DNA of 64,000 nt. Source: Gluconacetobacter azotocaptans. Its GTDB lineage: Bacteria > Pseudomonadota > Alphaproteobacteria > Acetobacterales > Acetobacteraceae. The stretch spans positions 1 to 64,000 of the forward strand of contig NZ_JABEQF010000019.1 of the NCBI RefSeq assembly GCF_014174355.1, given 5' to 3'. Numbering within the stretch: position 1 is the first letter of the stretch; the number at the start of each line of letters is the position of its first letter. Positions 40,287 to 63,311 of the stretch are shown in pieces. The position numbers and the translations under genes are program-made. The notes beneath the pieces were generated by a model, which was given only the letters and a program-made list of their open reading frames with translations, did not search any database and had not been told where the DNA came from.

Positions 40287-40291
40287 GCTAG
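39299..40291 (+). CDS. IS481-family transposase
   Basis: 330 residues from ATG 39299 (39284 is also in frame). There is an N-terminal helix-turn-helix (SLRVLAKRYGINPKTVAKWK) and an rve integrase core with the DDE triad: Asp in GYFHIDIAEV, Asp in HTVLTDNGTHF and Glu in TNGQVERMNRTIKEA. The core looks intact and probably active. The stop codon TAG (40289-40291) lies beyond the right inverted repeat, so the last codons come from the flanking DNA. Confidence 0.9.
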   Translation: MGQVHHGSATTTAAVRRTIQHSQESLRVLAKRYGINPKTVAKWKGRSDTTDRRTGPKAPLSTVLSIEEEAIVVAFRRHTLLPLDDCLYALQATIPHLTRSSLHRCLQRHGISRLPDTEGDKPRRSKFKTYPIGYFHIDIAEVRPEMGRLYLFVAIDRTSKFAFVQLHEKATRRVAGDFLRALAAAVPYRIHTVLTDNGTHFTDPTGDGWTPEDIKAMRADGVLFRCHSFEAACADLDIEHRLTKPRHPWTNGQVERMNRTIKEATVKRFYYETHDQLRQHLTDFVAAYNFARRLKTLRGLTPYEFICQQWEKEPSPFIQNPHHQIPGLNS

Positions 40292-47500: not shown

Positions 47501-47649
47501 GATAAATCGACCTACGGCTCCGGGCGGGGCCAGGGGGATACGGATTATGACGGCATCCGGACTTCATGCGGGGCGGTCTGTCGGGATAAACATTACGATA
47601 TGGTTCCATTCCGGCTTGAACGTGCGCCGGATGACGAGGAGTGCGCAAT

Positions 47650-50022
47650 ATGTTCGCAGGACCATCGGAAGGGCTTTCAAGGCGGGAGGCATTTCGTCTT
47701 GCAGGAATTGTCCGATCCATTTTTCTATCTTCCGGCTGTTCGGTTCTGGCGATGTCGCTCATGCTGGACACTGCCCGGGCGCAGACCGGAGCGGAGGTGG
47801 CACCCTCGCCTGCCACCCAGAAGAAGCCTGTAGCGCCCGCGCACCCGCGGCGGGCGTCCGCCAACGGGACACGCCTTGAGGAAGTGACGGTCACGGCGCG
47901 TCGTCGCACCGAACGGATCGAACGGACGCCGATTTCCATGACCACGGTCACGGGTACCCAGTTCGCGGAACGTGGCATCACCTCGATCGCAAAAATCCAG
48001 AACCTCGCACCCAATATCTCGTTCGGGAATGTGGCTGCGAGTTCCGGTGTCGCGAACGCGGCGGCCATTTTCATTCGTGGCATCGGCCAGACCGACTTTT
48101 CGTTCGGTGTCGATCCGGGCGTCGGGATGTATGTCGACGGCGTATATGTCGGCAGCCCGGTTGGTTCGGTTCTTAACATGGTCGATATTTCCAGCGTTTC
48201 CGTGCTGAGGGGACCGCAGGGAACGTTGTTCGGGCGGAATACGATTGGCGGCGCGGTGGCCGTGACGTCCCTGCAACCGAACGACCATCTGTCGGCACGG
48301 GCGGACGTCAAGTACGGCACGGCAAACCGCATCGATACGCGGGCGTTCGTCAACGTGCCGCTGTCCAGTACGCTGTTCGCCAACTTCTCGGTAGGAAGTT
48401 TCATGCAGGACGGGTACGTCAACGCGCCGTACCAGAAGGATGAACGCAAACTGGGCAGTCAGGACACCCGGGTGTTCAAGGGGGCGCTCCGATGGCATCC
48501 GATCGACAAGCTGAATGTGGTTCTGCGTGGCGACTGGACCCGCGATCGCAGCAACGGCGCGCCATTCGTGACGACGGGCGTGAATCCGACGGCGACCGGC
48601 AGCATGATCGCGCTGAACAACGCTCTTGCGGGTGGAACCCTGACGAATTGTACGGCGGCAGCGTGCTATAATTCCCGTTATTTCAGCAAGAATACCAATT
48701 ATGGTACGGGACCTGACTACTCGAACCTGGTTAACTGGTCGACATCCGGGACGATCGACTACGAACTGACGCCATGGCTCGATCTGAAATCGATTACGGC
48801 TTATCGCAAGAGCGAGGGGCAGTTTACCCAGGATCGTGACGCATCCCCCGTCAATATCAATTTCGTCAAGGATTTCTATATGGAGAAGCAATTCTCCGAA
48901 GAGTTTCAGGCGAACGGTCGCGCATTAAACAATCGTCTGCATTATTCTACCGGCGTCTATTATTTCGACCAGTCCGGATATGACATCAATCCGGTGAATT
49001 TCTACGTTCTCAGCCTGCTGAGCGGCGGAGATTTCCGTGATCGGAACTATGCGGCCTATGCCCAGTCGACCTATGCGGTTACCCGGAAGTTCAATGTCAC
49101 GGTCGGTGTCCGCTATACGGAAGACAATAAGAGCTTCCTGCCGAACCAGTATTATATCAGTTCGATCGGCGCTCCGATCCTGTCCATTCCGCCAGGAACG
49201 CGGATCGTGCCCGAGCGCTGGTATCACAACAACAATGCCCGTTGGACGCCGATGGTCAACCTGTCCTATCAGGTGACGCCGGAGTTGATGGCCTATACGA
49301 CGTTCTCGCAAGGCTTCAAGGGCGGCGGATTCACGCAGCGGCTGACGAACATCGCGCCGTCTCCGCCGTCCTTCCGGCCGGAATCGGTCAATTCGTTCGA
49401 AGGCGGCCTGAAATTCTATGGACTGGACCATCGTCTGCGGGTCAGCGCGGCCGGGTTCTTTACATTCTATGACAATGTGCAGCTTCTGGTCGCGGATGCG
49501 ACGCATATCGGCCCGTACTATACCAATGCGGGCAAGGCGCATATATCGGGCTTCGAACTCGAATCGCAATACGCGTTGGGTGACGGCTGGACGGCCAGCG
49601 GTTCCGTCGGCCTGACCGATGCCCACTATACGTCGCTGACGAACAGCGTGCAGGGGCTGACCCTGGATTCGATGTTCGTGCTCGTTTCGAAATGGACGGC
49701 CAACCTGGGACTGTCCAAGCGGATCGACATGGGGAGGTACGGTGTCCTGACGCCGCGCGTCGATGCGGTCTATCGGTCGCGGTATAATGCGAACGTAAAC
49801 GCGATCATGTATAATGAACTGATCCAGCCGAAATATATTCTGGTCAACCTCGGGGCGCGATGGGCCAGCGAGAGCGGCCGGTATAATTTCAGCGCCGGGC
49901 TGGACAATGCCACGAACGAAAAGTTCATGGCGTGGGGAAGCTATTCCGGCAGCTTTGGCAATTATCAGAAATCGTTCGATCGGGGTCGCCAGTGGTTCAT
50001 CCAGGGCGGTGTTTCGTTCTGA
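47650..50022 (+). CDS. TonB-dependent outer membrane receptor
   Basis: 790 residues from ATG 47650 (GTG at 47641 is an alternative). A long leader ends near MLDTARAQTG. The plug domain has EEVTVTARRRTERIERTPIS, AAIFIRGIGQTDF and VSVLRGPQGTLFGRNTIGGA, followed by a 22-strand barrel ending QWFIQGGVSF with the usual terminal Phe. It belongs to the large group taking up complex organic substrates rather than a recognisable siderophore type. Its place between the alcohol dehydrogenase and the iacA-like gene, and the shared operator, suggest substrate uptake for the catabolic cluster. Confidence 0.9.
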   Translation: MFAGPSEGLSRREAFRLAGIVRSIFLSSGCSVLAMSLMLDTARAQTGAEVAPSPATQKKPVAPAHPRRASANGTRLEEVTVTARRRTERIERTPISMTTVTGTQFAERGITSIAKIQNLAPNISFGNVAASSGVANAAAIFIRGIGQTDFSFGVDPGVGMYVDGVYVGSPVGSVLNMVDISSVSVLRGPQGTLFGRNTIGGAVAVTSLQPNDHLSARADVKYGTANRIDTRAFVNVPLSSTLFANFSVGSFMQDGYVNAPYQKDERKLGSQDTRVFKGALRWHPIDKLNVVLRGDWTRDRSNGAPFVTTGVNPTATGSMIALNNALAGGTLTNCTAAACYNSRYFSKNTNYGTGPDYSNLVNWSTSGTIDYELTPWLDLKSITAYRKSEGQFTQDRDASPVNINFVKDFYMEKQFSEEFQANGRALNNRLHYSTGVYYFDQSGYDINPVNFYVLSLLSGGDFRDRNYAAYAQSTYAVTRKFNVTVGVRYTEDNKSFLPNQYYISSIGAPILSIPPGTRIVPERWYHNNNARWTPMVNLSYQVTPELMAYTTFSQGFKGGGFTQRLTNIAPSPPSFRPESVNSFEGGLKFYGLDHRLRVSAAGFFTFYDNVQLLVADATHIGPYYTNAGKAHISGFELESQYALGDGWTASGSVGLTDAHYTSLTNSVQGLTLDSMFVLVSKWTANLGLSKRIDMGRYGVLTPRVDAVYRSRYNANVNAIMYNELIQPKYILVNLGARWASESGRYNFSAGLDNATNEKFMAWGSYSGSFGNYQKSFDRGRQWFIQGGVSF

Positions 50023-50203: not shown

Positions 50204-51358
50204 ATGCTGAATCATGTTGGCATTTGCTCTGGCGTGGCGGACATGGATGACGCTCTGGCGCCTCTTCTGGCGGAGATCCGGGCACGAGCCCTCGAGTTCC
50301 GGCGCGCGCGGAAGATACCGGAGGAAATTGTCGAGAAATTTCGGCAGGTCGGGGTCTATCGCGCCCTGGTGGCGCGGCGTTTCGGCGGGATGGAGCTTTC
50401 GCCTGCGGTATTTCTCGAACTGATCGAAGTGATCGGCAACGCCGACGCCTCGGCGGGCTGGGTCGCCAGTTTTGGTATCTCCGCGACGTATCTCGCGGCG
50501 CTGCCCATCGCCACGCTGGAGACGATCTACCGGCACGGGCCGGATGTCGTCTTCGCCGGCGCGATTTTCCCGCCGCAGAAGGCGGAACGCGCGGATGACG
50601 GGTTTATCGTGAACGGCCGCTGGCCATATGCCAGCGGTTGCACCGGCGCATCGCTCATCGGGGTGGGGATCGGCATTCCGGGCGAGAAGGGGGCGCTGCC
50701 GCGTACCGCTGTGATGCCGGCGTCCGCGATCCGGATCGAGGAAGTCTGGGATACGATCGGCCTCGCGGGCACGGGGAGCCACGACGTCGTGGCACGGGAC
50801 GTCCATGTGCCGGAGAGCTGGACATTCATTCGCGGGGGCGCGCCCAGTATGGACCTGGCAATCTACCGCTATCCGTCTCTCGGTTTCGCAGCGCAGGTTC
50901 TGACGGCCGTCGGATTGGGATGCGCGCGGCGCGCGATCGACGAGGTGACGGAAATGGCGGCCGTGCGTCAGTCCATCACCGGAGCGCCCACCATGGCCGA
51001 CAGGTCCCATGTCCAGGCCGAACTGGCCGAGGCCGAGGCGATGCTGTCGTCGGCCCGCGCATTCTTCTATGCCGTGACGGAGGAAGTCTGGTTCCTGGTG
51101 GAGGGCGGCGCGGAGGTGCCGGAGGCTCTGGCAAATCGGATTCGTCTTGCCGCGACACACGGGGCGCAGGTGGCGGCGGCAGTGACGCGGAAATGTTTCG
51201 GTCTGGGCGGTATCGCGGCGGTGCAGTCGGAGCACATTCTGGGGCGCTGCATGCAAGATTGTGCCGTCGTGGCGCAGCACGCGTTCATGGCGCGGGGCAA
51301 TTACGAGGCGGCGGGCCGTGTCATGCTCGGCCGCGGCGGCCGTCCCGGCTATCCGTAA
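50204..51358 (+). CDS. iacA: Acyl-CoA-dehydrogenase-like flavin monooxygenase (IacA-like)
   Basis: 384 residues (ATG 50204; ATG 50243 is possible). It has the acyl-CoA dehydrogenase fold of group D flavin monooxygenases: IPEEIVEKFRQVGVYRALVA, RFGGMELSP, NADASAGWVASFG and, in the helical C-terminal domain, CFGLGGIAAVQSEHILGRCM. It lacks the acyl-CoA dehydrogenase catalytic Glu context. Such enzymes hydroxylate aromatics with FADH2 from a separate reductase, here probably the gene at 56586. In iac pathways IacA starts the attack on indole-3-acetate. The call rests on the family plus the set of neighbours. Confidence 0.75.
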   Translation: MLNHVGICSGVADMDDALAPLLAEIRARALEFRRARKIPEEIVEKFRQVGVYRALVARRFGGMELSPAVFLELIEVIGNADASAGWVASFGISATYLAALPIATLETIYRHGPDVVFAGAIFPPQKAERADDGFIVNGRWPYASGCTGASLIGVGIGIPGEKGALPRTAVMPASAIRIEEVWDTIGLAGTGSHDVVARDVHVPESWTFIRGGAPSMDLAIYRYPSLGFAAQVLTAVGLGCARRAIDEVTEMAAVRQSITGAPTMADRSHVQAELAEAEAMLSSARAFFYAVTEEVWFLVEGGAEVPEALANRIRLAATHGAQVAAAVTRKCFGLGGIAAVQSEHILGRCMQDCAVVAQHAFMARGNYEAAGRVMLGRGGRPGYP

Positions 51359-51398
51359 AGCGGCAATTTTCTGAAGATTTTTACGAGGGAAGAGGCAT

Positions 51399-52682
51399 AT
51401 GCAGGATTTACCCGACCCCCGGACACTCCTCGCGCCCGATCGGGCCGACGGATCGATCTATAGCGACCCCGATCTGTACGACATGGAGATGGATCGCATC
51501 TTCATGCATAACTGGATCTGGGTCGCGCATCGCAGCGAAATTCCGGAACCGGGCGATTTCATCACGACGTTCGTCGGGCCGCATCCGGTCATCGTCTGTC
51601 GTGATCGGCAAGGTGTCGTGCACGTGATGCTGAACCGGTGCCGCCATCGCGCGGCGACGGTCTGCGAACTCAGGCGCGGGAAGACGGCCAGCTTTGTCTG
51701 TCCTTATCATGGCTGGGCCTACGGGCTGGACGGGACGCTGCGGGGCGTCCCGCATCAGGAAGGCTATAGCGGGCACCTCGACAAATCATCTCTTCCATTG
51801 GTGAATCTGCGCGTCGAGGAATATAACGGCCTGGTTTTCGCCACGTTCGACGAAACGATCCCGTCGCTCGATTCATGGCTGGGTCGGACAAAGCCCTGGA
51901 TCGACCTGTTCATGAAACAGGGTGCGGGCTGGCCGGTGAAGACCATGGGCGAGCATAAATTCACTTTTCCGGGCAACTGGAAGATCCAGCTCGAAAACAC
52001 GACCGACGCCTATCATTTTCCGATCGTGCACAAGTCGTTCCTGGATTCCGTCGACCAGGAAACACAGGATACGCTGAACTTCGTCGGCGGAAAGGGATTC
52101 GTCGAGGATCTGGGCAACGGTCATTCCGTTATGGTCATGATCCCGGAACTGGTGGATCTGGACGAGAATCTCGACGCGCCGATCCCCGAACGTTTCGCCG
52201 AACTGGCGGCCGGGCTGTCGAAGGACTACCCGCCGGAAAAAGTGCGCCAGATCATCCGCGCCGTGGGCGGTTCGGGATTCAACCTGAACCTTTTCCCGAA
52301 CCTGGCCTGTTCCATGGCTTTCTTTCGCGTGCTGCGCCCTTTGAGCGCGACATCGACCGAAATCCGGCATATCGCCATCGGCATGGATGGCGGTCCGGAC
52401 GTCGCCAACCAGGCGCGCCTGCGTCTGCACGAGCATTTTCAGGGGCCGATGGGTTTCGGCACACCCGATGACGCCGAGGCGTGGGATCGGGTACAGCGCG
52501 GTTCGCTGGCAGGAAAGAACATAGACATTCTGCTGAATCGCGGCTTGGGGCACGAGGCGCAGCGACCGGACGGGAACCTGTACAGCGATGTCAGCGCCGA
52601 AACCGGCATGCGCGCCGCTTACCGCCAATGGCTTGTCGCGATGACGGACAAGGCGTTTCCCGCCGAGGGAGAGGGCGCATGA
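51399..52682 (+). CDS. iacC: Rieske aromatic-ring-hydroxylating dioxygenase, alpha subunit (IacC-like)
   Basis: 427 residues. The Rieske centre is complete: C81-R-H83 in NRCRHRAATVCE and C101-PY-H104 in FVCPYHGWAYG. The catalytic domain has the iron site TTDAYHFPIVHKS with His-206 and His-211, and Asp-203 for electron transfer between subunits. A good GGGAAGAGG site precedes the ATG. The beta subunit follows with a four-base overlap. In iac pathways IacC/IacD open the way from the dioxindole intermediate to catechol. Confidence 0.85.
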   Translation: MQDLPDPRTLLAPDRADGSIYSDPDLYDMEMDRIFMHNWIWVAHRSEIPEPGDFITTFVGPHPVIVCRDRQGVVHVMLNRCRHRAATVCELRRGKTASFVCPYHGWAYGLDGTLRGVPHQEGYSGHLDKSSLPLVNLRVEEYNGLVFATFDETIPSLDSWLGRTKPWIDLFMKQGAGWPVKTMGEHKFTFPGNWKIQLENTTDAYHFPIVHKSFLDSVDQETQDTLNFVGGKGFVEDLGNGHSVMVMIPELVDLDENLDAPIPERFAELAAGLSKDYPPEKVRQIIRAVGGSGFNLNLFPNLACSMAFFRVLRPLSATSTEIRHIAIGMDGGPDVANQARLRLHEHFQGPMGFGTPDDAEAWDRVQRGSLAGKNIDILLNRGLGHEAQRPDGNLYSDVSAETGMRAAYRQWLVAMTDKAFPAEGEGA

Positions 52683-53152
52683 GCATCACGCTGCAGGATG
52701 CGGTCGCGTTGATCGCGCTGGAGGCCGATCTGCTGGATCATGGCGCGTTCCGCGACTGGCTGACGCTTTATACGCCCGACGGCCGATATGTCGTGCCGAT
52801 CGATCCGGACGTCGAGGATTTCGAGAGCGTCCTGAATTACGCCTATGATGATGCGGCGATGCGGGAAAAGCGCGTCGAACGCCTGCTGGGGGGACGGTCG
52901 ATCTCGGCGGCGCCGCCTGCCCGGACCGTTCGTCTGCTGTCGCGCTACCGGATGCTGGAGACCACGGACGCGACCTGCACACTGCGCTGCGCGCAGCACC
53001 TGATGGAACTTCGCCAGGGGCGTCAGCGCGACTATGCCGCCAATGTCACGTATCGCCTGAAGAACACGGACGGGGGACTGAAGATCGACCTGAAGGTCAT
53101 CCGCCTTCTGACCGCGACCGAGGCGCTGACGGCCGTGAGTTATATCCTGTGA
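52679..53152 (+). CDS. iacD: Aromatic-ring-hydroxylating dioxygenase, beta subunit (IacD-like)
   Basis: 157 residues of the NTF2-like beta-subunit fold: EADLLDHGAFRDWLTLYTPD, GRYVVPIDP, and the C-terminal strand TYRLKNTDGGLKIDLKVIRL. It forms the structural alpha3beta3 partner. It overlaps the alpha subunit and the following dehydrogenase by four bases each. Confidence 0.87.
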   Translation: MSITLQDAVALIALEADLLDHGAFRDWLTLYTPDGRYVVPIDPDVEDFESVLNYAYDDAAMREKRVERLLGGRSISAAPPARTVRLLSRYRMLETTDATCTLRCAQHLMELRQGRQRDYAANVTYRLKNTDGGLKIDLKVIRLLTATEALTAVSYIL

Positions 53153-53883
53153 CGCCTGTCGCGCTCATAACGGGCGGTGCCCGGGGGCTTGGCGCCTGCA
53201 TCGCCGGGCAACTCGCGGCCGGGGGGTACCAGGTCGTGCTTGGGGACATCGACCCGGCCGCGGCGGCGGAGACGGCGCGCCGGCTGGGTGATGGCGCGGC
53301 GGCGCTGGAACTCGATGTCTCGTCCGAAAGTGGCGTTGATTCGGCACTGGATGAGGTGGAACGGCGTTTCGGGCTACCGTGGCTGCTGGTCAACAATGCC
53401 GCGATCATGAAGGCGCAGAAGGTCCTGGAGATCGACATCGCGACGTTCGACGCGGTGATGGCCGTCAATCTGCGCGGGACGTTTCTGTGCAGCCAGCGCT
53501 TCGCGCGTCGTCTTCGGGCGCGGGAGCAGGAAGGCCGGATCGTGAATATCGGTTCGCTTGCCGGCCAGAACGGCGGGACGGCCACCGGCGCGCATTATGC
53601 CGCGTCGAAGGGGGCGGTTCACACGCTGACCAAGGTTTTCGCCCGCGACCTCGCGCCGTTCGGAATTACCGTGAACGCGATCGCGCCGGGGCCGCTGGAT
53701 CTGCCATCGGTGGGCGAGACGATCGGGGTGGAAAACGCCGCCCGCGTCTTCGCCGGCCTGCCGACCGGCAAGCCGGGCGACCCGCGGACCGTCGCCCGGA
53801 TGGTCGTGGAACTGGCCCGGCCGGATGCCGGCGGGATCACGGGGGCGACCATCGACATCAATAGCGGGCTTTACCTGCGATGA
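53149..53883 (+). CDS. iacE: Short-chain dehydrogenase/reductase (IacE-like)
   Basis: 244 residues from a GTG that overlaps the upstream stop (GTGA). Cofactor loop TGGARGLGACIAG with an acidic GDID suggesting NAD; also LLVNNAAIM, catalytic Ser in IVNIGSLAG and Tyr/Lys in AHYAASKGAV. In iac clusters IacE acts with IacA on the oxidised indole; elsewhere such enzymes serve as cis-diol dehydrogenases behind ring dioxygenases. It overlaps both neighbours. Confidence 0.82.
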   Translation: MTPVALITGGARGLGACIAGQLAAGGYQVVLGDIDPAAAAETARRLGDGAAALELDVSSESGVDSALDEVERRFGLPWLLVNNAAIMKAQKVLEIDIATFDAVMAVNLRGTFLCSQRFARRLRAREQEGRIVNIGSLAGQNGGTATGAHYAASKGAVHTLTKVFARDLAPFGITVNAIAPGPLDLPSVGETIGVENAARVFAGLPTGKPGDPRTVARMVVELARPDAGGITGATIDINSGLYLR

Positions 53884-54839
53884 GTGATACCGGTGTGATC
53901 GACGTGACCGTCGCGGCGGTCGAGCGGATGGGACGTGTCTTGTGTTTCGACCTGCGCGCCGTCTCCGGCCAGCTGCCCGCGTGCCGGGCGGGCGCGCATG
54001 TCGACCTGCATCTCGGGGACGGGCTGATACGCCAGTATTCGCTTTGCGGTGATCCGGCGGACCGGGAACGGTATAGGCTGGCGGTGCTTCTGGAACCGGC
54101 GTCTCGCGGCGGGTCGCGCCGCGTACATGAGATCGTGTCGCCCGGTGCGATCTTGCAGGCGCGACAGCCGCGAAACCTCTTTCCTCTGGCGGTGGGGGCA
54201 TCCCGTTCCGTGTTGGTCGGGGGAGGAATCGGCGTGACCCCCCTGATCGCCATGGCATACGAACTGCACGCGGCGGGAGCGCCCTTTACCTTGCATTATA
54301 TCGCCCGCGATCCGGTCTTCGCGGATCTTCTGTTCCGGACCCCGTTCGCGGGGGCGGTACGGATCCATGACCGCAGCGATGCCGCGTCGCCGCGTTTCGA
54401 ACCTGCTGCCGTGCTGTCGGCGGCCGTGGCAGATGGCGCGGCCGTCGCCGGCCTGCATGTGTATAGCTGCGGCCCCAACAGTCTGATGGATGCGGTGGAC
54501 GCCGCGGCGAAGGCGATCGGCCTGCCGGACGACAACGTGCATCGCGAGGCGTTTTCCGCGCTGCCCGTCGCGGGCGGAACGGGTTTCGAGGTTCTGGCCG
54601 CCAAATCCTCCGTGCGGGTGTCGGTCGGAGAGAACGAGACCATCGCGGCGGCCCTCGCGCGGGTGGGGGTGAAAGTCGCCGTCAGCTGCGAACAGGGTAT
54701 CTGCGGGACATGCGTGGTGGACCTGCTGGAAGGGATGCCGGATCACAGGGACGAGTATCTGACCGAGGAGGAGCGGTCTGAGCAGATCGCGCTGTGCTGC
54801 TCGCGCGCGCGCTCGCCGCTTCTGGTGGTCGATCTCTGA
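53880..54839 (+). CDS. iacF: Phthalate-dioxygenase-reductase/VanB-type ferredoxin reductase (IacF-like)
   Basis: 319 residues: a flavin (FMN-type) barrel with IRQYSLCGDP, an NAD domain with GGGIGVTPLIAMA and CGPNSLMDAV, and a C-terminal plant-type [2Fe-2S] domain with Cys-270, Cys-275, Cys-278 and Cys-306 (CEQGICGTC...ALCC). It passes electrons from NADH to the Rieske centre of the dioxygenase. It overlaps genes on both sides. Confidence 0.87.
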   Translation: MSDTGVIDVTVAAVERMGRVLCFDLRAVSGQLPACRAGAHVDLHLGDGLIRQYSLCGDPADRERYRLAVLLEPASRGGSRRVHEIVSPGAILQARQPRNLFPLAVGASRSVLVGGGIGVTPLIAMAYELHAAGAPFTLHYIARDPVFADLLFRTPFAGAVRIHDRSDAASPRFEPAAVLSAAVADGAAVAGLHVYSCGPNSLMDAVDAAAKAIGLPDDNVHREAFSALPVAGGTGFEVLAAKSSVRVSVGENETIAAALARVGVKVAVSCEQGICGTCVVDLLEGMPDHRDEYLTEEERSEQIALCCSRARSPLLVVDL

Positions 54840-55831
54840 TGCCGGGGCTGAAGATCTGCGTGGCCGGGGTCGGGGCGATGGGGGGGATGCTCGCCGGCAT
54901 GCTCGCCCGCACGGACGTGGACCTGTCGCTCGTCGCGCGTGGCGAAACGCTCCGGACCCTTCGGGAGAAGGGGCTGACCGTGCATGACGGGCAGTCGGCG
55001 CGCATCGTGCGATGCGCCGCGAATACGCGCGCGCCCGACACGGTGCAGGACGTCGTCATCCTGGCGGCCAAGTCCCAGCAGCTTCCCGCGCTGGCTGCGT
55101 GCGTGTCGCACGCCGTCGGACCGCAGACGCTGGTCGTGCCGGTCGTCAACGGCCTGCCGTGGTGGATGACGCTGCCGACAGGAAGCCCCTGCGGCGCGGC
55201 CCGCGCCTGCGTGGATCCGGGGGGGGAGCTTGCGCGCGCGTTTCCTCCCGCCCGCGTGGTCGGGTGCGTGGCCTATGCGTTCGCATCGCTGGATGCGCCG
55301 GCGGTGGTGCGATCGGCGAAGGCGCCGACACTGGTGCTGGGGCGCGTCCAGGGGGGGAACGCCGACGACCCGGAGGTGGCTGCGCTTGTGCAGGTTCTGG
55401 ACGCGGCGGGCGTCGTGATCACCCGCAGCCCCGACATACGGTGCGATGTGTGGGCCAAGCTGGCGGTCAATCTTGCCACGAATCCGCTTTCGGTTGTGTG
55501 TGAGGAGACATTGGGCGGGCTCGTCGCGGCACCGCCGACGCGTCAGGTCGTCCGCGACATGCTGGAAGAGGCCGTCACCATCGGCCGGGCATGTGGTTTC
55601 GGTCCTCTTCGCAGCGTGGACGAACAACTCGGCTCCATCGCCGTGGCAGACGGTCATCGGACGTCGATGCTTCAGGATTACCAGGCGGGCCGCGCGCTTG
55701 AACTGGATGCGATCGGATATGCGGTCATGCGGGTGGGGGCTGTCTGCGGCGTGGCCATGCCCGTAACCGCGACAATTCTCAGGCTGGCGGATTTCAAGGC
55801 CGCGCGGCCGGACAGGCAGGGAAATCGCTGA
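54839..55831 (+). CDS. Ketopantoate reductase-like (2-dehydropantoate 2-reductase family) protein
   Basis: 330 residues. Rossmann start KICVAGVGAMGGMLAGMLAR, then AAKSQQLPA (family lysine region), VVNGLPWW, and the C-terminal helical domain with KLAVNLATNPLSVV carrying the Lys and Asn of the active site. True pantoate genes rarely lie in degradation operons, so this copy likely reduces another 2-oxo or 3-oxo acid. It overlaps iacF by one base (TGATG) and the aldolase by one, so it belongs to the operon; it is not part of the standard iac gene set. Confidence 0.8.
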   Translation: MPGLKICVAGVGAMGGMLAGMLARTDVDLSLVARGETLRTLREKGLTVHDGQSARIVRCAANTRAPDTVQDVVILAAKSQQLPALAACVSHAVGPQTLVVPVVNGLPWWMTLPTGSPCGAARACVDPGGELARAFPPARVVGCVAYAFASLDAPAVVRSAKAPTLVLGRVQGGNADDPEVAALVQVLDAAGVVITRSPDIRCDVWAKLAVNLATNPLSVVCEETLGGLVAAPPTRQVVRDMLEEAVTIGRACGFGPLRSVDEQLGSIAVADGHRTSMLQDYQAGRALELDAIGYAVMRVGAVCGVAMPVTATILRLADFKAARPDRQGNR

Positions 55832-56589
55832 TGACCATGGGTGTTCAAGAGGAAGAATGGCAGCTCCGGACACGACTGGCCGAATGCTACCATCTGATCA
55901 GTTATCATGGCTGGACGGAGATGATCTTCAATCATATCTCCGTCCGCCTGCCGGGTGAGCCGAAGCGCTACCTGGTGAACGCGTTCGGGCTGAATTACGA
56001 CGAGGTCACACCAGAAAACCTTTTGGTCGTCAACGCGGACGGCCAGCTGGTCGGGGAAGCCTCCAGCAAGCCCAATCCGGCGGGTTTCGCTCTGCATGGG
56101 GCGATCCATGCGGCGCGGGACGACATTCACTGCATCATACATACCCACACGAACGCGGTCTGCGCCGTCGCGATGAAGCAGGACGGCTTCAGCCACGACA
56201 ATTTTTACGGCGCGCAACTTTTCGGCCGTGTCGGCTACCATGATTTCGAGGGCATCACCCTGTATGACGAGGAACGCCCCAGGATGCTGGCCAGCCTGGG
56301 CGACAAGCATGTGCTGGTGCTGCGCAACCATGGAATCGCGGTCGGGGAAAGCGACGTCGCACGGGCCTTCTTCCTGCTATGGACTGTCCAGCGCGCCGCG
56401 GAAATCCAGTGTCACGCCGGCATGATTCCGGGGGCGGACGTCATCATTGCCGATACCGTCAAGCAGGCATGCGCGCGCGACGCGGCACGGCTGATCGCCA
56501 GATCATCAGCGGCGGACAAGATGTTCGACGCGGCGGTTCGCAAGATGCGCAGGGAATGCGGCCCGCTATGGCCGGGGGATAAAACATGA
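55831..56589 (+). CDS. Class II aldolase/adducin-family protein
   Basis: 252 residues. Metal-binding His pair in CIIHTHTNAVCAV and third His in LVLRNHGIAVGES; HISVRLPGEPKRYLVNAFGL is typical of the adducin-like branch. It could be a fuculose-phosphate-type aldolase, an epimerase or a decarboxylase acting on a 3-hydroxy or 2-oxo acid. It is an extra member of this cluster compared with known iac loci. It overlaps the next gene by four bases. Confidence 0.82.
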   Translation: MTMGVQEEEWQLRTRLAECYHLISYHGWTEMIFNHISVRLPGEPKRYLVNAFGLNYDEVTPENLLVVNADGQLVGEASSKPNPAGFALHGAIHAARDDIHCIIHTHTNAVCAVAMKQDGFSHDNFYGAQLFGRVGYHDFEGITLYDEERPRMLASLGDKHVLVLRNHGIAVGESDVARAFFLLWTVQRAAEIQCHAGMIPGADVIIADTVKQACARDAARLIARSSAADKMFDAAVRKMRRECGPLWPGDKT

Positions 56590-57068
56590 CCGGCGTGACG
56601 GCGGACGAATTCCGCAAGGCCATGTCGCATTTCGCGACAGGTGTGGCCGTGGTCATGGCGGCGGGAGACGAGGGAGAACACGGGGCGACAATCAGCGCGC
56701 TCAGTTCAGTCTCGCTCGATCCTTTGACGCTGCTGGTCTGCCTGAATCGCAAAAGTGCGACCTGTCGCGCCATCGAAAAAAACGGGAGCTTCGGTCTGAG
56801 CATACTGCGACGGGACCAGGCGGATATCGCCCGGCATTTTGCCATGCCGGCCCATGCCAAGATAGTGCATGACCACGGTATCCGCCATGCCGACGGCACG
56901 TCCTTCGTCCGGGGTGCCCTGGTGCAGATCGGCCTTGAGGTCGTGGAGACCCTGCGGGGCGGAACGCACGAGGTCTTTATGGCGAGGCCGCTGCATATCG
57001 CCATGAATGTCCGGTCCGAGGTCGAGCCGCTTCTGTATTACCGGGGGACGTTTGACCTGACGCCCTGA
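56586..57068 (+). CDS. iacG: Flavin reductase (IacG-like), partner of the two-component monooxygenase
   Basis: 160 residues: HFATGVAVVMAAG, ATISALSSVSLDPLTLLVCL and NRKSATCRAIEKNGSFGLSI are characteristic of the HpaC/flavin-reductase-like domain. It makes reduced flavin with NAD(P)H and hands it to the acyl-CoA-dehydrogenase-like monooxygenase at 50204. It overlaps the aldolase-like gene; the amidase follows after 28 bases. Confidence 0.8.
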   Translation: MTGVTADEFRKAMSHFATGVAVVMAAGDEGEHGATISALSSVSLDPLTLLVCLNRKSATCRAIEKNGSFGLSILRRDQADIARHFAMPAHAKIVHDHGIRHADGTSFVRGALVQIGLEVVETLRGGTHEVFMARPLHIAMNVRSEVEPLLYYRGTFDLTP

Positions 57069-57096
57069 CGAAGCCAGCGGGAAGGAGAAACGACGC

Positions 57097-58344
57097 ATGC
57101 ACGACGAGACAGAGCAGGAAATCGCCACGCGCCTTATCGGCCGTGTTGATCGGTACGAGTCCACCATTCGGGCCTTCGCCAGCTACGATCCCGCCCGGGC
57201 AAGGCAGGAGGCCGCGACGGCCGCGCAGGGGCCGCTGTCCGGCCTGTCCGTGGGCGTCAAGGACATCATCGATACGGCGTATTATCCCACCGGGCACGGG
57301 TCGCCCATCTATGACGGGAACCATACGCGAAACGACGCGGCCTGCGTCACGCTTCTCCGGCAGGCCGGCGCATTGTGCGTCGGCAAGACGGTGACCACGG
57401 AATTTGCATTTTTTCGCGCGGGCGCCACCGTCAATCCGTACGATCTGTCCCGGACGCCGGGCGGTTCCTCAAGCGGTTCCGCCGCCGCGGTTGCCGCCGG
57501 CATGATCGATATCGGGCTGGCATCGCAGACGGCGGCATCGCTGACCCGGCCGGCATCCTATTGCGGGATCGTCGGATTTAAGCCATCCTACGGGCGCTAT
57601 GCGGCGGCTGGCGTCAAGGGGCTTGCACCGTCGTTCGATACGCTGGGAACATTGACGGCCGACGTGGCGACGGCCGTGCTGGCGGATGGCGTTCTGAAAG
57701 GTCCGTGTCCAGTCCGCATGACGCCGTCTGCCCGGGTGCCGGCGCGTATCGGCCTGTGCCGCACCCCTTGGTGGGACGAGGCAGAGGATTCCACGCGCCT
57801 GGCGCTACTGGATTCGGGCCGGCGTTTCGGTACCCATGCCGATGTGGAGGACGTCGACCTGTCGGCGTTCTCGGACGCGGCGGATCTTCATGTCACGATC
57901 ATGAGTTATGAAGCCGCTCAGGCTCTGGCATGGGAATTCACCGACAGGCGTGCCCTGATGAGCCAGCAGATCGTCGGCCTGCTGGAAGCCGGACGGGCGA
58001 TCGGATACGAGACGTACCGCGCTGCCCTGACACGCGCCGCCGCCTTGCGCGAGCGGATCGACACTCTGTTCGATCGCTACGACGTGCTGCTTGCGCCCGC
58101 CGCGCCAGGGGTTGCGCCGAAACGGGAGCAGGGTACGGGCAGCCCAATTTTCAGCCGGCTGTGGACGCTGTTGCGGCTGCCGACCGTAACGTTACCTGGT
58201 CCGGTAGGGGACGGCGGCCTGCCGGTGGGCGTGCAACTACTGGGCCGGATCGGAAGCGACGAGGATTTGCTGAATGTCGCCGCATGGGCGGAGGCCATCT
58301 TGCCCGCGCGGCCCGTTCCGGCTATCTGCCGACAGGGGGAGTAG
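57097..58344 (+). CDS. iacH: Amidase signature family hydrolase (IacH-like)
   Basis: 415 residues behind GGGAAGGAG. The amidase signature includes catalytic Lys in VGVKDIIDT, cis-Ser in TPGGSSSGSAAAVAAG and the nucleophile region ASQTAASLTRPASYCGIVGF. The residue before the nucleophile Ser is Ala instead of the usual Gly. An amidase is a diagnostic, still poorly understood member of iac clusters (IacH). It probably hydrolyses an amide-like or lactam intermediate. Confidence 0.78.
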   Translation: MHDETEQEIATRLIGRVDRYESTIRAFASYDPARARQEAATAAQGPLSGLSVGVKDIIDTAYYPTGHGSPIYDGNHTRNDAACVTLLRQAGALCVGKTVTTEFAFFRAGATVNPYDLSRTPGGSSSGSAAAVAAGMIDIGLASQTAASLTRPASYCGIVGFKPSYGRYAAAGVKGLAPSFDTLGTLTADVATAVLADGVLKGPCPVRMTPSARVPARIGLCRTPWWDEAEDSTRLALLDSGRRFGTHADVEDVDLSAFSDAADLHVTIMSYEAAQALAWEFTDRRALMSQQIVGLLEAGRAIGYETYRAALTRAAALRERIDTLFDRYDVLLAPAAPGVAPKREQGTGSPIFSRLWTLLRLPTVTLPGPVGDGGLPVGVQLLGRIGSDEDLLNVAAWAEAILPARPVPAICRQGE

Positions 58345-58911
58345 ATGACAACTCCGACGTTGGAACACCGTCTGGACGCCCTGGCGGCGCGCGTGGCGCA
58401 ACTGGAAGCCGAGGCGGAGATCCGCCGGATTCAGGCACGGTATATGTTCCTGTGCGATACGCCATGCCCCGAATTCGGCATCATGGACGATGCGCAGCGC
58501 ATCGATCGGATCATGGACCTCTATGCCGAAGATGCGATCTGGGAGGGCGTGGGCGATTATTATGACAACCAGTTCGGACGCTGTGTCGGCAAGGCGGCCA
58601 TACGTACGCATTTTGAAAGTTTCTGGAACGAAAAACGCGACCCGAATTTGCTTCTGAACGTCCATTATCTGACGTCCGAGCAGATTCACGTCCACGGCGA
58701 TACGGCGGATGGCCAATGGGTGCACTGCCAGCCATGGATTTTCAGTGACGGGACATCTCTGCTGCGGTCGAGCCGGCTGAACAATCTTTTCCGGCGCCAG
58801 GGCAATGTCTGGAAAATCACGCGCACCCGAACGGAAAATCTGTTTGTCGCGCCGCTGCCGGCTGGCTGGGCCGGCAGCTTTCCTGCGCGTTCCGTACTGA
58901 TGAAGCCGTGA
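58345..58911 (+). CDS. SnoaL/NTF2-like protein (IacI candidate)
   Basis: 188 residues: an N-terminal helix with the coiled-coil-like DALAARVAQLEAEAEIRRIQ, then the cone-shaped NTF2 fold (DDAQRIDRIMDLYAEDAIWE; TADGQWVHCQPWIF). Such proteins are isomerases, hydratases or dehydratases, or binding subunits, in aromatic degradation. The start directly follows the amidase stop. It may correspond to one of the small iac proteins (IacB or IacI), which I cannot decide by eye. Confidence 0.7.
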   Translation: MTTPTLEHRLDALAARVAQLEAEAEIRRIQARYMFLCDTPCPEFGIMDDAQRIDRIMDLYAEDAIWEGVGDYYDNQFGRCVGKAAIRTHFESFWNEKRDPNLLLNVHYLTSEQIHVHGDTADGQWVHCQPWIFSDGTSLLRSSRLNNLFRRQGNVWKITRTRTENLFVAPLPAGWAGSFPARSVLMKP

Positions 58912-59014
58912 GGATGTTCAGAAAATTTCCCATTCATGGTTTTTACCACTTCCTTCCCCTGCCCGAGCATGTGTTCGAGCAGGATCAGTTCTGCCATGGC
59001 AGGAAAGGACGAAC

Positions 59015-59410
59015 ATGACCGATATCGCTGATGTGGTGACCAAGGAGATCGTGGAGCTGCATCGTCTGTTGCAGGCGTGGTTTTGCGGCGAGGGAACGAA
59101 TGATCCCGAGGTCATCCTGGAACGGTTCGATCCCGGCTACATGATGGTGGGTGCGGCCGGTCGCGTCGTGAGTTATGAGGATTTCCAGAAAATTCTTCCC
59201 GCGCTGCACGGTTCGCGCCCGACGCTGGTCATGCAGATCTCTGACGTTCGGGTCTGTCATGCATTCGAAGGGGGTGTCCTGGCCTTCTATCGGGAAGTCC
59301 AGACCACGGGGGAAAGCCGCAACGCACGCTGGTCCAGCGTCATGTTCCTGTTTTCAGAGGACGGTCAGGCGCTGCGCTGGCGGCATCTGCACGAAACGTT
59401 CGTGGCCTGA
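59015..59410 (+). CDS. DUF4440/NTF2-like protein
   Basis: 131 residues, preceded by AGGAAAGGA. The pattern EIVELHRLLQAWFCGEG, FDPGYMMVGAAGRVVSYEDF and ARWSSVMFLFSEDGQALRWR, ending HLHETFVA, is a small NTF2 domain. It lies 103 bases after the previous gene and is probably the last gene of the operon. Function unknown; it may be the counterpart of a small accessory iac protein. Confidence 0.65.
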   Translation: MTDIADVVTKEIVELHRLLQAWFCGEGTNDPEVILERFDPGYMMVGAAGRVVSYEDFQKILPALHGSRPTLVMQISDVRVCHAFEGGVLAFYREVQTTGESRNARWSSVMFLFSEDGQALRWRHLHETFVA

Positions 59411-59720: not shown

Positions 59721-61046
59721 ATGCAGATAGTTGAACAATCACGTGAACTGGAATACGAATCGGCGGGTCTGTGGAAGGCCTGGTCAATCGTCCTTCTGTG
59801 CATGCTCGCCTATATCTTGTCCTTTATCGATCGACAGATTCTTGCGCTGCTTGTCGGTCCGATCCGGGCCGATCTCCACATTTCCGATACGCAATTCGGC
59901 CTTTTGAACGGCCTCGCATTCTCGATTTTTTACGCCACCATGGGAATCCCTATTGCGGGCCTGTCCGATCGTTCATCCCGTCCACGGATCATCGTCTGCG
60001 GAATTGCGGTGTGGAGCGCCGCCACAATGGCGTGCGGCATGGCAAGATCATTCGGCCACCTCTTCCTGTCGCGCATCCTCGTCGGTGCCGGTGAAGCGGC
60101 GCTCTCGCCTGCCGCCTACTCTCTCATTGCGGATCTCTTTCCGCGCGACAGGATGGGGCGAGCTCTGGCCGTCTATTCACTCGGAACGCTGCTGGGAACC
60201 GGACTGGCCTTTCTCGTCGGCGGCGTCGTCATTGCGGCCATATCGTCGGCGGCCCGCTATTCTCTTGCCGGCCTGTCGTTCTCGCCTTGGCAGGTCACGA
60301 TGTTTATCGTCGGCGCGCCCGGAATTATTCTTGCCATCGTCATTGGAACAGTCGTCAAGGATCCGCGGCGTGCACGTGCCCTGGATCCCTCTGTTCCTAC
60401 GATCGCGAGCGTATTTCGAGAGCTGACCTCTCAGCCTGGTATCTACGTGCCTCTTCTGCTCGGCTTTTCGCTTGCGGCGATGGCGCTGTATGGTCTCCTG
60501 AGCTGGATCCCCGCGCATCTGATGCGTCGCTTCGACATGGGGCCCCGTCAGGTCGGATTGCTGCTCGGTCCGATCGCGATCATTGCAGGCGGCGGAGGCA
60601 ATCTCGTCAGCGGGTGGCTGGTCGACGGTTTCGCCGGAAAGGGCCGGCACGATGCACCGTTTCTGGTGGGCATGATCGGCGCGGCCGGCGTGGCACTCCC
60701 GTCGCTCGCAATCGGCCTCGCACCCAGTTTGGGGATCGCGATCCCGCTTGTCGCGGCCGCACTGTTCTTCGCTGCGTTCCCGATGGCGCCATCAACCGTC
60801 GTCATGCAGGTCGCCGCACCGGCATCGATACGCTCGCGCGTATCGGCCATCTTTCTGTTTTGCAATTCCTTCATCGGCCTGGCCCTGAGTTCGGCGCTGA
60901 TCGGCTTTACCAATGATCGCTTCTTCGGGGGCAATGACATCGGGTTGGCGATGGGCATCGTCGTCTCGATCGCCGCGGTTCTCGCAATCTTCGTTTTGCA
61001 CATGGGACGGCGCCCATTCGGCGCCCGGCATCCCTTCCGGGCCTGA
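59721..61046 (+). CDS. MFS transporter (spinster-like)
   Basis: 441 residues from ATG 59721 (upstream TTG 59664 would add 19 residues). Twelve membrane helices, with the spinster-type opening LAYILSFIDRQILALLVGPI, DTQFGLLNGLAFSIFYATMG, GLSDRSSRPRII and FPRDRMGRALAVYSLGTLLG. Such carriers in alphaproteobacteria often lie in degradation clusters for aromatic acids. It probably forms an operon with the two dehydrogenases that follow 20 bases later. Confidence 0.85.
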   Translation: MQIVEQSRELEYESAGLWKAWSIVLLCMLAYILSFIDRQILALLVGPIRADLHISDTQFGLLNGLAFSIFYATMGIPIAGLSDRSSRPRIIVCGIAVWSAATMACGMARSFGHLFLSRILVGAGEAALSPAAYSLIADLFPRDRMGRALAVYSLGTLLGTGLAFLVGGVVIAAISSAARYSLAGLSFSPWQVTMFIVGAPGIILAIVIGTVVKDPRRARALDPSVPTIASVFRELTSQPGIYVPLLLGFSLAAMALYGLLSWIPAHLMRRFDMGPRQVGLLLGPIAIIAGGGGNLVSGWLVDGFAGKGRHDAPFLVGMIGAAGVALPSLAIGLAPSLGIAIPLVAAALFFAAFPMAPSTVVMQVAAPASIRSRVSAIFLFCNSFIGLALSSALIGFTNDRFFGGNDIGLAMGIVVSIAAVLAIFVLHMGRRPFGARHPFRA

Positions 61047-61066: not shown

Positions 61067-62149
61067 ATGCGTACAGCAGTATTGGGCGGTGGGCATGGTT
61101 GCTACGCCGCGGCGGCGGAGTTGTCCGAAAAGGGGCATGAAGTCTGGTTCTGGCGCCGGGACGCCAATGCTTTCGCGCCGGTGACCGAGAGTCGCGCGAT
61201 CAAGGTGAAGGATCGCCACGGCGTGCGCACCGTCGCGATCGCTCACCCGACGACCGACCTTGCCGAGGCCGTGGCCAATGCAGAGCTGATTGTCATTCCC
61301 CTGCCGGCGATCGCGCAAGAGGGACTGGCCGGACAGGTCGCGCCGCTCCTCCGCGATGGCCAGGTCATCTTCCTGCCGCCCGGTACGCTCGGCAGTATCG
61401 TCTTCGCCCAGGCCATGGCGAAGGCGGGCAATCATGCCGATGTCGCGATCGCCGAGACCGGCACGCTGCCTTACCTCGTCCGCAAGCATGGGCCGGCTTC
61501 GATCGTTGTCAGTGGCTACGCGACCCGGTTGCCGACGGGTATCTATCCGTCGCGCCTGGCGGGCCATGCCTTGCCGATTCTCCAGCGGGCCTATCCCTCG
61601 ATCGAACCGATCGAGGATGCGCTGTCCGGAGCGTTGATGAATGCCGGCCCGGTCATCCATCCGCCGCTCATCCTGCTCAATGCCGGTCCGCTCGAACATT
61701 TCGAGAGCTGGGATATCCACAATGAGGGCACCCAGCCGGCAATCCGCCGTGTCACCACCGCGCTCGACCGGGAGCGGATGGACGTTCGTGAGGCGCTGGG
61801 CTATGGCGCACCGCATTTCCCGCTCGCCGATCATTATGACGAGAGTGGCGACGAGTGGATGTATGGCCGCCGGGCGCATGGCGAATTGACCGACAGCGGT
61901 GACTGGCGGGAAAAGATCGACCTCCAGACGCATCGCTACATGCGCGAGGATACGGCGCTGGGTCTCGCGCTGCTCGTGTCGATCGGCCGTTGGGCCGGTT
62001 GCCCGACGCCGGTCGCCTCGGGGCTGCTCGCGGTCGCGAGCGCGGTGACGGGGGAGGATCTCTATGCCGGTGGCCGCACGCTCGAAGCTCTCGGGCTTGC
62101 CGGGCTCGACCGCGCCGGCATGGATAAGGTCATGACCGATGGCTTCTGA
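61067..62149 (+). CDS. NAD/NADP octopine/nopaline dehydrogenase-family protein
   Basis: 360 residues. Rossmann start VLGGGHGCYAAAAELSEKGH, then VIPLPAIAQEGL and the alpha-helical opine dehydrogenase C-terminal domain (ALMNAGPVIHPPLILLNAGP; YGAPHFPLADHY). This fold makes or oxidises N-(carboxyalkyl)amino acids, but related enzymes act on other 2-oxo or 2-hydroxy acids. It overlaps the following dehydrogenase gene by 11 bases. The role and substrate are unknown. Confidence 0.82.
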   Translation: MRTAVLGGGHGCYAAAAELSEKGHEVWFWRRDANAFAPVTESRAIKVKDRHGVRTVAIAHPTTDLAEAVANAELIVIPLPAIAQEGLAGQVAPLLRDGQVIFLPPGTLGSIVFAQAMAKAGNHADVAIAETGTLPYLVRKHGPASIVVSGYATRLPTGIYPSRLAGHALPILQRAYPSIEPIEDALSGALMNAGPVIHPPLILLNAGPLEHFESWDIHNEGTQPAIRRVTTALDRERMDVREALGYGAPHFPLADHYDESGDEWMYGRRAHGELTDSGDWREKIDLQTHRYMREDTALGLALLVSIGRWAGCPTPVASGLLAVASAVTGEDLYAGGRTLEALGLAGLDRAGMDKVMTDGF

Positions 62150-63143
62150 GCATCGGGTCGCGGTTCTCGGGGCCGGCCGCATGGGGCGGGGCATCGCGCT
62201 CTCCCTCTCGTACGCGGGACATCCGGTGGTGGTGGTCGATCTCATGCCGCGCGAGGCCGCGGCCTCGCGCGGGCTGGAGGCCGAGATGCGGGCGGAGATT
62301 GAACGGGATCTCGCCTTTCTTTCGGACGTCGGCGTACTCGAGGATGGCGGGGGCGAGGTGGTACAGGCCTCGATTCGTTTCGCCGACGCGGCTAGGGCCG
62401 CCGACGCGGTGGCTGACGCGACGATCGTGTTCGAGTGTGTGCCGGAGACGATCGAGGCCAAGCGGCCCTGTTACGAATGGGTAAGCCGCCATGCGCCGGC
62501 GGATTGCATCGTCGCTTCGACCACCTCGACCATCGATGCGCAGACGCTGGCGGCGCTGGTCACGAGGCCGGAGCGGTTCCTCAATGCGCATTGGCTCAAT
62601 CCCGCGCATCTGATCCCGCTGGTCGAACTCAGCCCTTCGGTTGCGACATCGTCCGATACGATTCATCGGATGAAGCAGTTCTTGTCCGCTTGCGGCAAGG
62701 TGCCGATCGTGTGTGCCTCCTCGCCTGGCTATATCGTGCCGCGTATCCAGGCGCTCGCGATGAACGAGGCGGCGCGGCTGGTCGAGGAAGGCGTCGCGAG
62801 CGCGGAAGATGTCGACATGGCCGTCCGTGTCGGCTTCGGTCTGCGCTTCGCGGTGCTCGGTCTCCTCGAGTTCATCGATTGGGGAGGTTGCGACATCCTG
62901 CATCATGCCAGTTTCTTTCTGTCCGCCAAGGTGGATGCAGCTCGCTTCGCCGCGCCGAAGCTGATTTCCGATCACATGGAACAGGGCCGACGCGGCCTGC
63001 GCGACGGCGCGGGATTCTATGAGTACGAAGGTGTCGATCTCGGCGAATATCGTCGGAAGCGGATGCATGACTTCATTCACCTGCTGCAGGCGCGGCAATT
63101 GATGCCGGTGCGAGGTGGCAATACCCGCCCGGACCATCAATGA
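62139..63143 (+). CDS. 3-hydroxyacyl-CoA dehydrogenase-like, NAD-binding protein
   Basis: 334 residues: VAVLGAGRMGRGIALSLSYA, FECVPETIEAKRPCYEWVSR, catalytic-type His and Glu in NAHWLNPAHLIPLVELSP, GYIVPRIQALAMNEAARLVE and a C-terminal dimerisation domain. The length (about 330) and single module match stand-alone beta-hydroxyacid or L-carnitine/L-gulonate-type dehydrogenases rather than fatty-acid multienzymes. It is coupled to the opine-dehydrogenase-like gene. Confidence 0.83.
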   Translation: MASEHRVAVLGAGRMGRGIALSLSYAGHPVVVVDLMPREAAASRGLEAEMRAEIERDLAFLSDVGVLEDGGGEVVQASIRFADAARAADAVADATIVFECVPETIEAKRPCYEWVSRHAPADCIVASTTSTIDAQTLAALVTRPERFLNAHWLNPAHLIPLVELSPSVATSSDTIHRMKQFLSACGKVPIVCASSPGYIVPRIQALAMNEAARLVEEGVASAEDVDMAVRVGFGLRFAVLGLLEFIDWGGCDILHHASFFLSAKVDAARFAAPKLISDHMEQGRRGLRDGAGFYEYEGVDLGEYRRKRMHDFIHLLQARQLMPVRGGNTRPDHQ

Positions 63144-63311
63144 GACAGCTTCGACAATGTCCATGCCTGGGACGTGACAGCCCATGATTTTATGGCGCGA
63201 CGGCGCCGGCACTCTTCGCAGTGCCTGCCGAACCGTAGACGGAGAGAACATCGCGTCCGACAGAACCGCGCCGCGGACGCTTTGCCCTATATGTCGGGAA
63301 AGAGGCGCAGC

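Follow-up and report, generated by a model that had tools for sequence, protein, structure and literature searches.

Does the gene run at positions 50204-59410 of a Gluconacetobacter azotocaptans contig encode the iac pathway, which takes indole-3-acetate (IAA) to catechol, and in what form? The window analyzed here is the first 64,000 bases of the 66,081-base contig NZ_JABEQF010000019.1, from a genome rated 100% complete. An earlier note on this DNA had read the run as an iac-like cluster in a rearranged form. Sequence comparisons place the run in the iac family, and indicate that three expected iac genes are replaced and two enzymes are added. The result appears to be a new iac variant, with the added pair of enzymes as an unproven candidate for a role in the pathway. 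Eleven intact open reading frames (ORFs) on the + strand fill the run. They comprise the ten genes of the earlier note in its order, A-C-D-E-F-KPR-aldolase-G-amidase-NTF2, plus a SnoaL gene at 58345-58911.

The core enzymes carry the family assignment. The oxygenase component of an IacA-type flavin monooxygenase (50204-51358) shares 51% identity, over 371 columns, with its counterpart in an annotated iac locus on a Klebsiella plasmid. Adjacent genes encode the Rieske oxygenase alpha subunit IacC (51399-52682), in which the Rieske and mononuclear-iron motif residues are present, and the beta subunit IacD (52679-53152; PF00866; 46-47% to canonical IacD). IacE, a short-chain dehydrogenase (SDR; 53149-53883; PF13561), is 49-50% identical to its canonical counterpart, and IacF, a VanB-type reductase with a 2Fe-2S domain (53880-54839; PF00111), is 46-47% identical. 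A flavin reductase of the right family (56586-57068; PF01613) occupies the IacG position. A 92-row tree set 90 IacC rows apart from two outgroup rows (support 97/98, with extremely long outgroup branches), and the acetic acid bacteria formed a clade of 16 rows (100/100) within it. When plasmids were searched with the Rieske alpha subunit, 940 records matched; among the 40 matches listed, identity was 53-67% in 30 and 34-36% in 10. The surroundings of five of those 30 were inspected: four contained most or part of the iac set, and the fifth, from Rhodococcus, had no adjacent iacA or SDR gene. In the Acetobacteraceae genomes, the next Rieske tier after IacC reached at most 36% over its full length, and matches confined to an N-terminal part went no higher than 45%. 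Neither the monooxygenase nor the Rieske alpha subunit was closest to another pathway, the outcome by which the earlier note had proposed to refute its assignment. A steroid HsaA-type pathway was rejected, as the monooxygenase scored 155.9 bits to HsaA against a cut-off of 450.

The regulator is of the same type. The structure 7KUA is P. putida MarR_iacR, in which Tyr44 is placed at the IAA carboxylate, and 7KFO is Variovorax MarR_73 (PMC9613470). The MarR protein encoded at 42013-42480 (PF01047), the probable regulator of the locus, scored best against 7KUA (104.7 bits), followed by 7L19 (88), 7L1I (54.5) and the IadR structure 7KFO (33.5). The IacR tyrosine at the IAA carboxylate appears conserved in the alignment, provided that the crystal chain of 7KUA has a 24-residue tag, which we take to be the case and on which the alignment offset depends. 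The regulator gene that the earlier note had listed is thus present; it lies outside the run where that note had placed it, 7.7 kb upstream of iacA. An iad-like (isatin/anthranilate) pathway, or another Rieske pathway, was considered as an alternative, since a MarR regulator as well as a Rieske alpha/beta pair is common to both auxin pathways. We regard this explanation as very unlikely, given that iacA is present, that the IadR structure scored so far below IacR, and that a Variovorax plasmid homolog with a CoA-type neighborhood is only 34% identical. The cluster genes gave no Pfam match to a CoA ligase or thiolase, and no IadD-type Rieske alpha subunit was found, in a comparison that did not extend to iorB and iotA.

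Between IacF and the flavin reductase lie the two added genes, encoding a ketopantoate-reductase-like 2-ketoacid reductase (KPR; 54839-55831; PF02558, PF08546), which also adjoins iac elsewhere, and a class II aldolase/adducin-family enzyme (ALD; 55831-56589; PF00596; NF005451 over cut-off). Ten junctions link the genes of the run. The six from C through G are overlaps of 4, 4, 4, 1, 1 and 4 bases; of the other four, the genes abut at one and stand 40, 28 and 103 bases apart at three. The statement that nearly every gene overlaps the next therefore describes the stretch from C to G and not the remainder. Pfam families were confirmed for the genes of the run, with only a weak DUF4440 match, under the cut-off, for the last gene. 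The order A-C-D-E-F-KPR-ALD-G-AMI, where AMI is the amidase gene, is shared by loci of Gluconobacter, Nguyenibacter and Gluconacetobacter (L041-L045) at 42-87% protein identity. The ratio of non-synonymous to synonymous substitutions (dN/dS) is low in the computable comparisons of cluster genes, in which synonymous sites are near saturation, and ALD is about as conserved as IacC. Because the same order is kept across these loci with low dN/dS, it is not a product of chance.

The amidase departs from the canonical set. The earlier note had counted it as an IacH and held the combination with an amidase to be close to diagnostic, a view that the comparisons do not support. AMI (57097-58344) is 31% identical to IacH, and its best solved relative is malonamidase E2 (1obj; 229.8 bits over 383 residues), the next family scoring 119.6 bits. 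IacH of Enterobacter soli prefers other amidases (132.6 bits) to malonamidase (92.4 bits). AMI has the amidase-signature Lys-cisSer-Ser triad and the S-x-x-R-P motif at the nucleophile, both in common with malonamidase E2 (1obj and other PDB entries), which itself carries S-V-I-R-P. The arginine of this motif presumably binds the substrate carboxylate in malonamidase E2. S-x-x-R-P was found in 19 of 20 AMI-type amidases, the twentieth being truncated, and S-x-R-x-P in 57 of 58 IacH-type amidases, where the remaining one is likewise truncated. An amidase tree split 19 AMI rows from 57 IacH rows with an SH-aLRT of 100 and a long-branch warning. Both amidase types occur in Ideonella oryzae (L072). 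AMI is thus assigned to a separate malonamidase-E2-like clade and not to IacH, which was not found in the cluster. Malonamidase E2 converts malonamate to malonate and ammonia (PMC8393822), and the likeness leads to a concrete guess at the substrate of AMI.

The last two genes of the run point to two further swaps. The SnoaL_4 protein I2 (58345-58911; PF13577) is 35% identical to IacI and 72-79% identical to homologs in Bradyrhizobium, Methylobacterium, Rhodopseudomonas and a Rhodococcus plasmid. In a SnoaL tree, 62 IacI rows and 21 I2 rows formed separate groups (SH-aLRT 100, long-branch warning), so that a homolog of a different clade is found where IacI was expected. The final gene, NTF (59015-59410), encodes an NTF2-fold protein (AlphaFold model, pLDDT 95.6; TM 0.89 to PDB 1tp6). 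IacB did not align with NTF, and no IacB match was found in the near-identical Gluconacetobacter asukensis locus (L040). The possibility that IacB and NTF share one fold was rejected, the IacB model being ferredoxin-like (beta-alpha-beta-beta-alpha-beta; pLDDT 84.1, best TM ~0.56). The I2 homolog on the Rhodococcus sp. YL-1 plasmid (L037 8234-10837; 72% identical) adjoins an IacC/IacD pair that has no adjacent iacA or SDR gene.

We surveyed these swaps in 87 loci with IacC at 50% or more, a non-random set in which 79 came from the best 80 of 535 IacC relatives. IacB was found in 62 loci and NTF in 16, both together in none and neither in nine, four of which are shorter than 13 kb. IacI outnumbered I2 by 61 to 20, with neither in six loci; for one of these six (L119, genome G169), I2 lies ~10 kb away. 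Hylemonella (L094) and G169 combine IacB with I2, and the two swaps are therefore separable. Sequence comparison thus indicates that I2 replaces IacI, and that NTF is present where IacB is absent. The mutual exclusion of IacB and NTF should be read as a pattern that falls short of statistical proof, because the tree holds only two or three independent switches. A plain canonical iac cluster was rejected, since three defining genes, IacB, IacI and IacH, were not found. The cluster is also more than the rearranged set that had been described: IacB is missing, the SnoaL protein is of a different clade and the KPR-ALD pair is added. IacA, IacB and IacI are used as iac markers in PMC9613470, and surveys based on iacB or iacI may undercount loci of the I2/NTF type.

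The KPR-ALD pair recurs beside iac. ALD was present at 60% identity or more at 22 of the 87 loci, one of which (L101) is counted on a 27-residue edge stretch alone. Another 11 loci had KPR without a visible aldolase; extension of one, from Acetobacter orleanensis, revealed an aldolase (77%) adjoining KPR. Among 200 Acetobacteraceae genomes, ALD occurred in 4 of 6 with iacC versus 3 of 194 without (Fisher p = 7.9e-6, relatedness ignored, and G000 and G174 being near kin), and it was within 5 kb of iacC in all four. AMI was accompanied by ALD or KPR in 15 of 18 loci, compared with 18 of 63 loci lacking AMI (p = 5.8e-5, relatedness ignored). The only prior report of KPR-ALD with iac that we found concerns Marinomonas, for which an aldolase/reductase pair is listed with its function given as unknown (PMC11373566).

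What might these enzymes do? Work on other iac systems has shown that IacA forms 2-oxindole-3-acetate and that IacE forms 3-hydroxy-2-oxindole-3-acetate (DOAA) (PMC7225977); the steps from DOAA to catechol, and the roles of IacB, IacH and IacI, are described as unsolved (PMC7225977, PMC9613470). By orthology, IacA, the flavin reductase and IacE would convert IAA to DOAA, and IacCDF would dioxygenate the ring, from which catechol would be released. The expected mass balance is DOAA (C10H9NO4) + O2 + 2 H = catechol (C6H6O2) + C4H5NO4, and the four-carbon side chain would thus leave with the ring nitrogen as an amide, 2-oxosuccinamate. Malate was initially considered as the released fragment and was replaced, as the mass balance gives C4H5NO4. 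Dioxygenation at C3a and C7a with loss of the C-N bond would give a ring alpha-hydroxyketone, in which the C3a-C3 bond could break by a retro-aldol reaction, with catechol leaving as an enediolate. Zinc class II aldolases stabilize leaving groups of the enediolate kind. ALD may catalyze or speed this release, which is the least certain step. The C4 keto-amide acid would suit both a 2-ketoacid reductase and a malonamidase; KPR would probably reduce it first, and AMI would hydrolyze the amide, giving ammonia and a C4 acid. I2 and NTF would stand in for IacI and IacB.

Taken as a whole, proposed steps included, we consider it likely that the locus encodes a variant iac pathway of acetic acid bacteria. 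A more specific version is offered tentatively, as a reading of rather low probability. KPR, ALD and AMI would perform the unsolved end of the pathway: the aldolase would carry out the C3a-C3 retro-aldol, with catechol leaving as a metal-chelated enediolate, KPR would reduce 2-oxosuccinamate to malamate, and AMI would turn malamate into malate and ammonia. For acetic acid bacteria the outcome would be a harvest of side chain and nitrogen that discards the ring as catechol.

The fate of the ring was followed through the genome. As the earlier note had observed, the window has no catechol cleavage gene, and no match to the intradiol dioxygenase family PF00775 was found in the whole genome, nor in G174 and G169. 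Three of 11 further acetic-acid-bacterial iacC genomes have one or two PF00775 genes; two of these hold a neighboring pair of matches, and the third is Acetobacter orleanensis. In total, PF00775 was present in 3 of 14 acetic-acid-bacterial iacC genomes compared with 15 of 17 other iac genomes, which were chosen by hand (Fisher p = 2.6e-4, without regard to relatedness). Outside this 14-genome test are three Acetobacteraceae iac genomes, G059 and G019 with PF00775 genes and G178 with none. In A. orleanensis (L150 3765-7325), catB-catA-pcaD homologs, all over NCBIfam cut-offs, lie directly beside ALD-KPR and ~12 kb from iacA, with LysR genes adjoining. Two extradiol families were searched in the present genome, in which catechol-2,3-dioxygenase (TIGR03211) gave only a 38-residue scrap. 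With no intradiol or catechol-2,3-type dioxygenase in the genome, catechol is probably either released or a dead end, and carbon and nitrogen would be gained from the side chain.

Several observations weigh against this account of a variant pathway or lend it no strong support. The flavin reductase is only ~28% identical to IacG. Elsewhere in the genome, a gene of the LigB family is nearest to 4,5-DOPA dioxygenase (134.8 bits, under the cut-off of 233), so that some ring cleavage may occur. Pair tests on the IacC tree were run with 79 rows, after nine truncated, partial or duplicate loci had been dropped and I2 of L119 set by hand. They gave only two independent pairs for the IacB/NTF switch (sign test, median p = 0.5). 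For AMI against ALD, 1.8 of 6 independent pairs changed the same way (median p = 0.5, not significant), and for AMI against IacH an average of 4.1 of 6 pairs were opposite (median p = 0.125). We know of no I2/NTF-type locus that has been shown to degrade IAA. No KPR or ALD was found within ~10 kb of iac in Enterobacter soli and other enterobacterial loci, so that the core pathway cannot depend on the two enzymes. ALD, alone or with KPR, is also found where iac is absent.

These last two points, E. soli being a validated iac organism, are also what favors an ordinary iac pathway in which KPR, the aldolase and the second amidase are operon passengers serving another substrate. We give this explanation a modest chance. 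It has to account for the position of KPR and ALD inside the translationally coupled run, for the recurrence of ALD beside iac despite ~11 gains or losses on the IacC tree, and for its conservation at about the level of IacC. The best ALD match in 288 other alphaproteobacterial genomes was 51%, which also argues against passengers. Surroundings were read for two of the three Acetobacteraceae genomes that have ALD and lack iacC: in one (L144 8354-11204) KPR-ALD is beside a gluconolactonase-like gene, and in the other (L143 13-9817) ALD is near a Rieske alpha gene.

The genes upstream of iacA raise the question of the substrate. An FMN-dependent 2-hydroxyacid dehydrogenase (42659-43828; PF01070), whose homologs adjoin several other iac loci, is a possible feeder with a putative substrate only. 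It is followed by a phenylacetaldehyde-dehydrogenase-like aldehyde dehydrogenase (43838-45331; best NCBIfam StyD, 636.7 bits, under the cut-off of 850) and a pyrroloquinoline quinone (PQQ)-dependent alcohol dehydrogenase with a cytochrome c domain (45341-47452; TIGR03075, 627.7 bits, over cut-off; PF01011, PF13442). The latter two may feed tryptophol and indole-3-acetaldehyde into IAA, the alcohol dehydrogenase as a possible oxidant of tryptophol and the aldehyde dehydrogenase as a possible source of IAA from indole-3-acetaldehyde. Both occur in 7 of 14 acetic-acid-bacterial loci (L040-L053) and also in G169, and P. putida 1290 grows on indole-3-acetaldehyde (PMC7225977). Genes annotated alkJ and feaB are near iac in an Acinetobacter plasmid locus. 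A canonical iac locus of an uncultured Erythrobacter (L113) has similar genes nearby, for an aldehyde dehydrogenase (37%) and a PQQ-alcohol dehydrogenase (51%).

The FMN dehydrogenase, which belongs to the same gene string and has a counterpart listed in the Marinomonas iac cluster (PMC11373566), would fit a variant that acts on another indole acid or on a wider range of them, indole-3-lactate for example. In that case a dihydroxyglutaramate would be released, which the amidase, 2-hydroxyacid oxidation and the class II aldolase would take to pyruvate and glyoxylate. IacA of Caballeronia glathei does oxidize indole-3-lactate (43% conversion) and other 3-substituted indoles, but 2-oxindole-3-lactate was not converted by IacE of the same organism, and indole-3-lactate did not support growth of P. 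putida 1290 (PMC7225977). Together with a regulator of the IAA-binding IacR type, this makes the alternative rather improbable, and we retain IAA as the putative substrate of the variant pathway.

Among acetic acid bacteria the distribution of iac is patchy. An IacC match of at least 64% was found in 6 of 200 Acetobacteraceae genomes, one of the six having an internal TGA, and the Gluconacetobacter genomes G042 and G123 had no IacC match at E 1e-40. The nearest named host by IacC is G. asukensis (99%). Second partial copies were observed in Gluconacetobacter sacchari (L049 10001-14525; C-D-F-AMI-I2) and Nguyenibacter vanlangensis (L050 8374-10788; C-D-F up to the contig end). Neither copy has IacA or IacE matches, and both adjoin a different TonB receptor. 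No passage on an aldolase, a Rieske enzyme, an amidase or Acetobacter was found in PMC11630574. We found no report of iac in acetic acid bacteria among the literature titles listed, which is weak evidence of absence, and the text of PMC9613470, its 221-genus figure aside, names no Gluconobacter, Gluconacetobacter or Acetobacteraceae. The locus suggests that acetic acid bacteria may remove auxin, possibly releasing catechol. These bacteria share niches with plants and with tryptophol-making yeasts.

The remaining neighbors include possible transport genes. A TonB-dependent receptor (47641-50022; PF00593, PF07715) directly precedes iacA, and an MFS transporter (59721-61046; PF07690; start codon uncertain), possibly for uptake, follows NTF. 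The window then continues (61067-63998) with an octopine-dehydrogenase-like gene (61067-62149; PF02317), its paired 3-hydroxyacyl-CoA-dehydrogenase-like gene (62139-63143; NF006125 over cut-off) and a PGA_cap (CapA-like) gene. All of these single genes from the MarR gene onwards, down to 63143, are on the + strand. Homologs of the octopine-dehydrogenase-like protein (60-68%) adjoin iac genes in Pseudomonas, Acinetobacter and one Acetobacteraceae genome, with homologs of its partner (46-53%) at the same loci. Several Pseudomonas iac loci have this pair plus a distant FMN 2-hydroxyacid dehydrogenase; one of the Pseudomonas pair loci (L080) also holds an OprD porin and a NIPSNAP gene. An IS3-type integrase-core ORF (39284-40291) lies ~2 kb upstream of the MarR gene, preceded by an ORF (38706-39377) that covers no more of a zinc alcohol dehydrogenase than its N-terminal domain.

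Compared with the iac cluster of P. putida 1290 and its relatives (iacABCDEFGHI, iacR), the locus has in common the IacA, C, D, E and F orthologs, adjacent C and D genes, a flavin reductase and an IacR-type MarR regulator. It differs in having no IacB, I2 for IacI, a malonamidase-like amidase for IacH, an inserted KPR and aldolase, and no catechol cleavage gene in the window. The Marinomonas NFXS50/MWYL1 iac clusters likewise have a class II aldolase, a 2-dehydropantoate 2-reductase and an alpha-hydroxy-acid oxidizing enzyme, and their amidase is 28.6% identical to IacH. In contrast to the present locus, they keep IacB (78.3%) and IacI (62.2% to P. putida), the aldolase and reductase are apart from the iac genes, beside ABC transporter genes, and the genome has a catechol pathway (PMC11373566). 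The alphaproteobacterial loci of Bradyrhizobium (L060, L077), Methylobacterium (L085) and Rhodopseudomonas (L117) have A, C, D, E, I2 and NTF but neither IacB nor IacI, as here; unlike here, they have no malonamidase-like amidase nearby and their IacC is in a separate clade. KPR-ALD is divergent in L060 and L117 and was not seen in L077 and L085. Candidate enzymes for the route from DOAA to catechol are named by the natural swaps of IacI for I2, IacB for NTF and IacH for a malonamidase-like amidase, together with the recurrent KPR-ALD pair.

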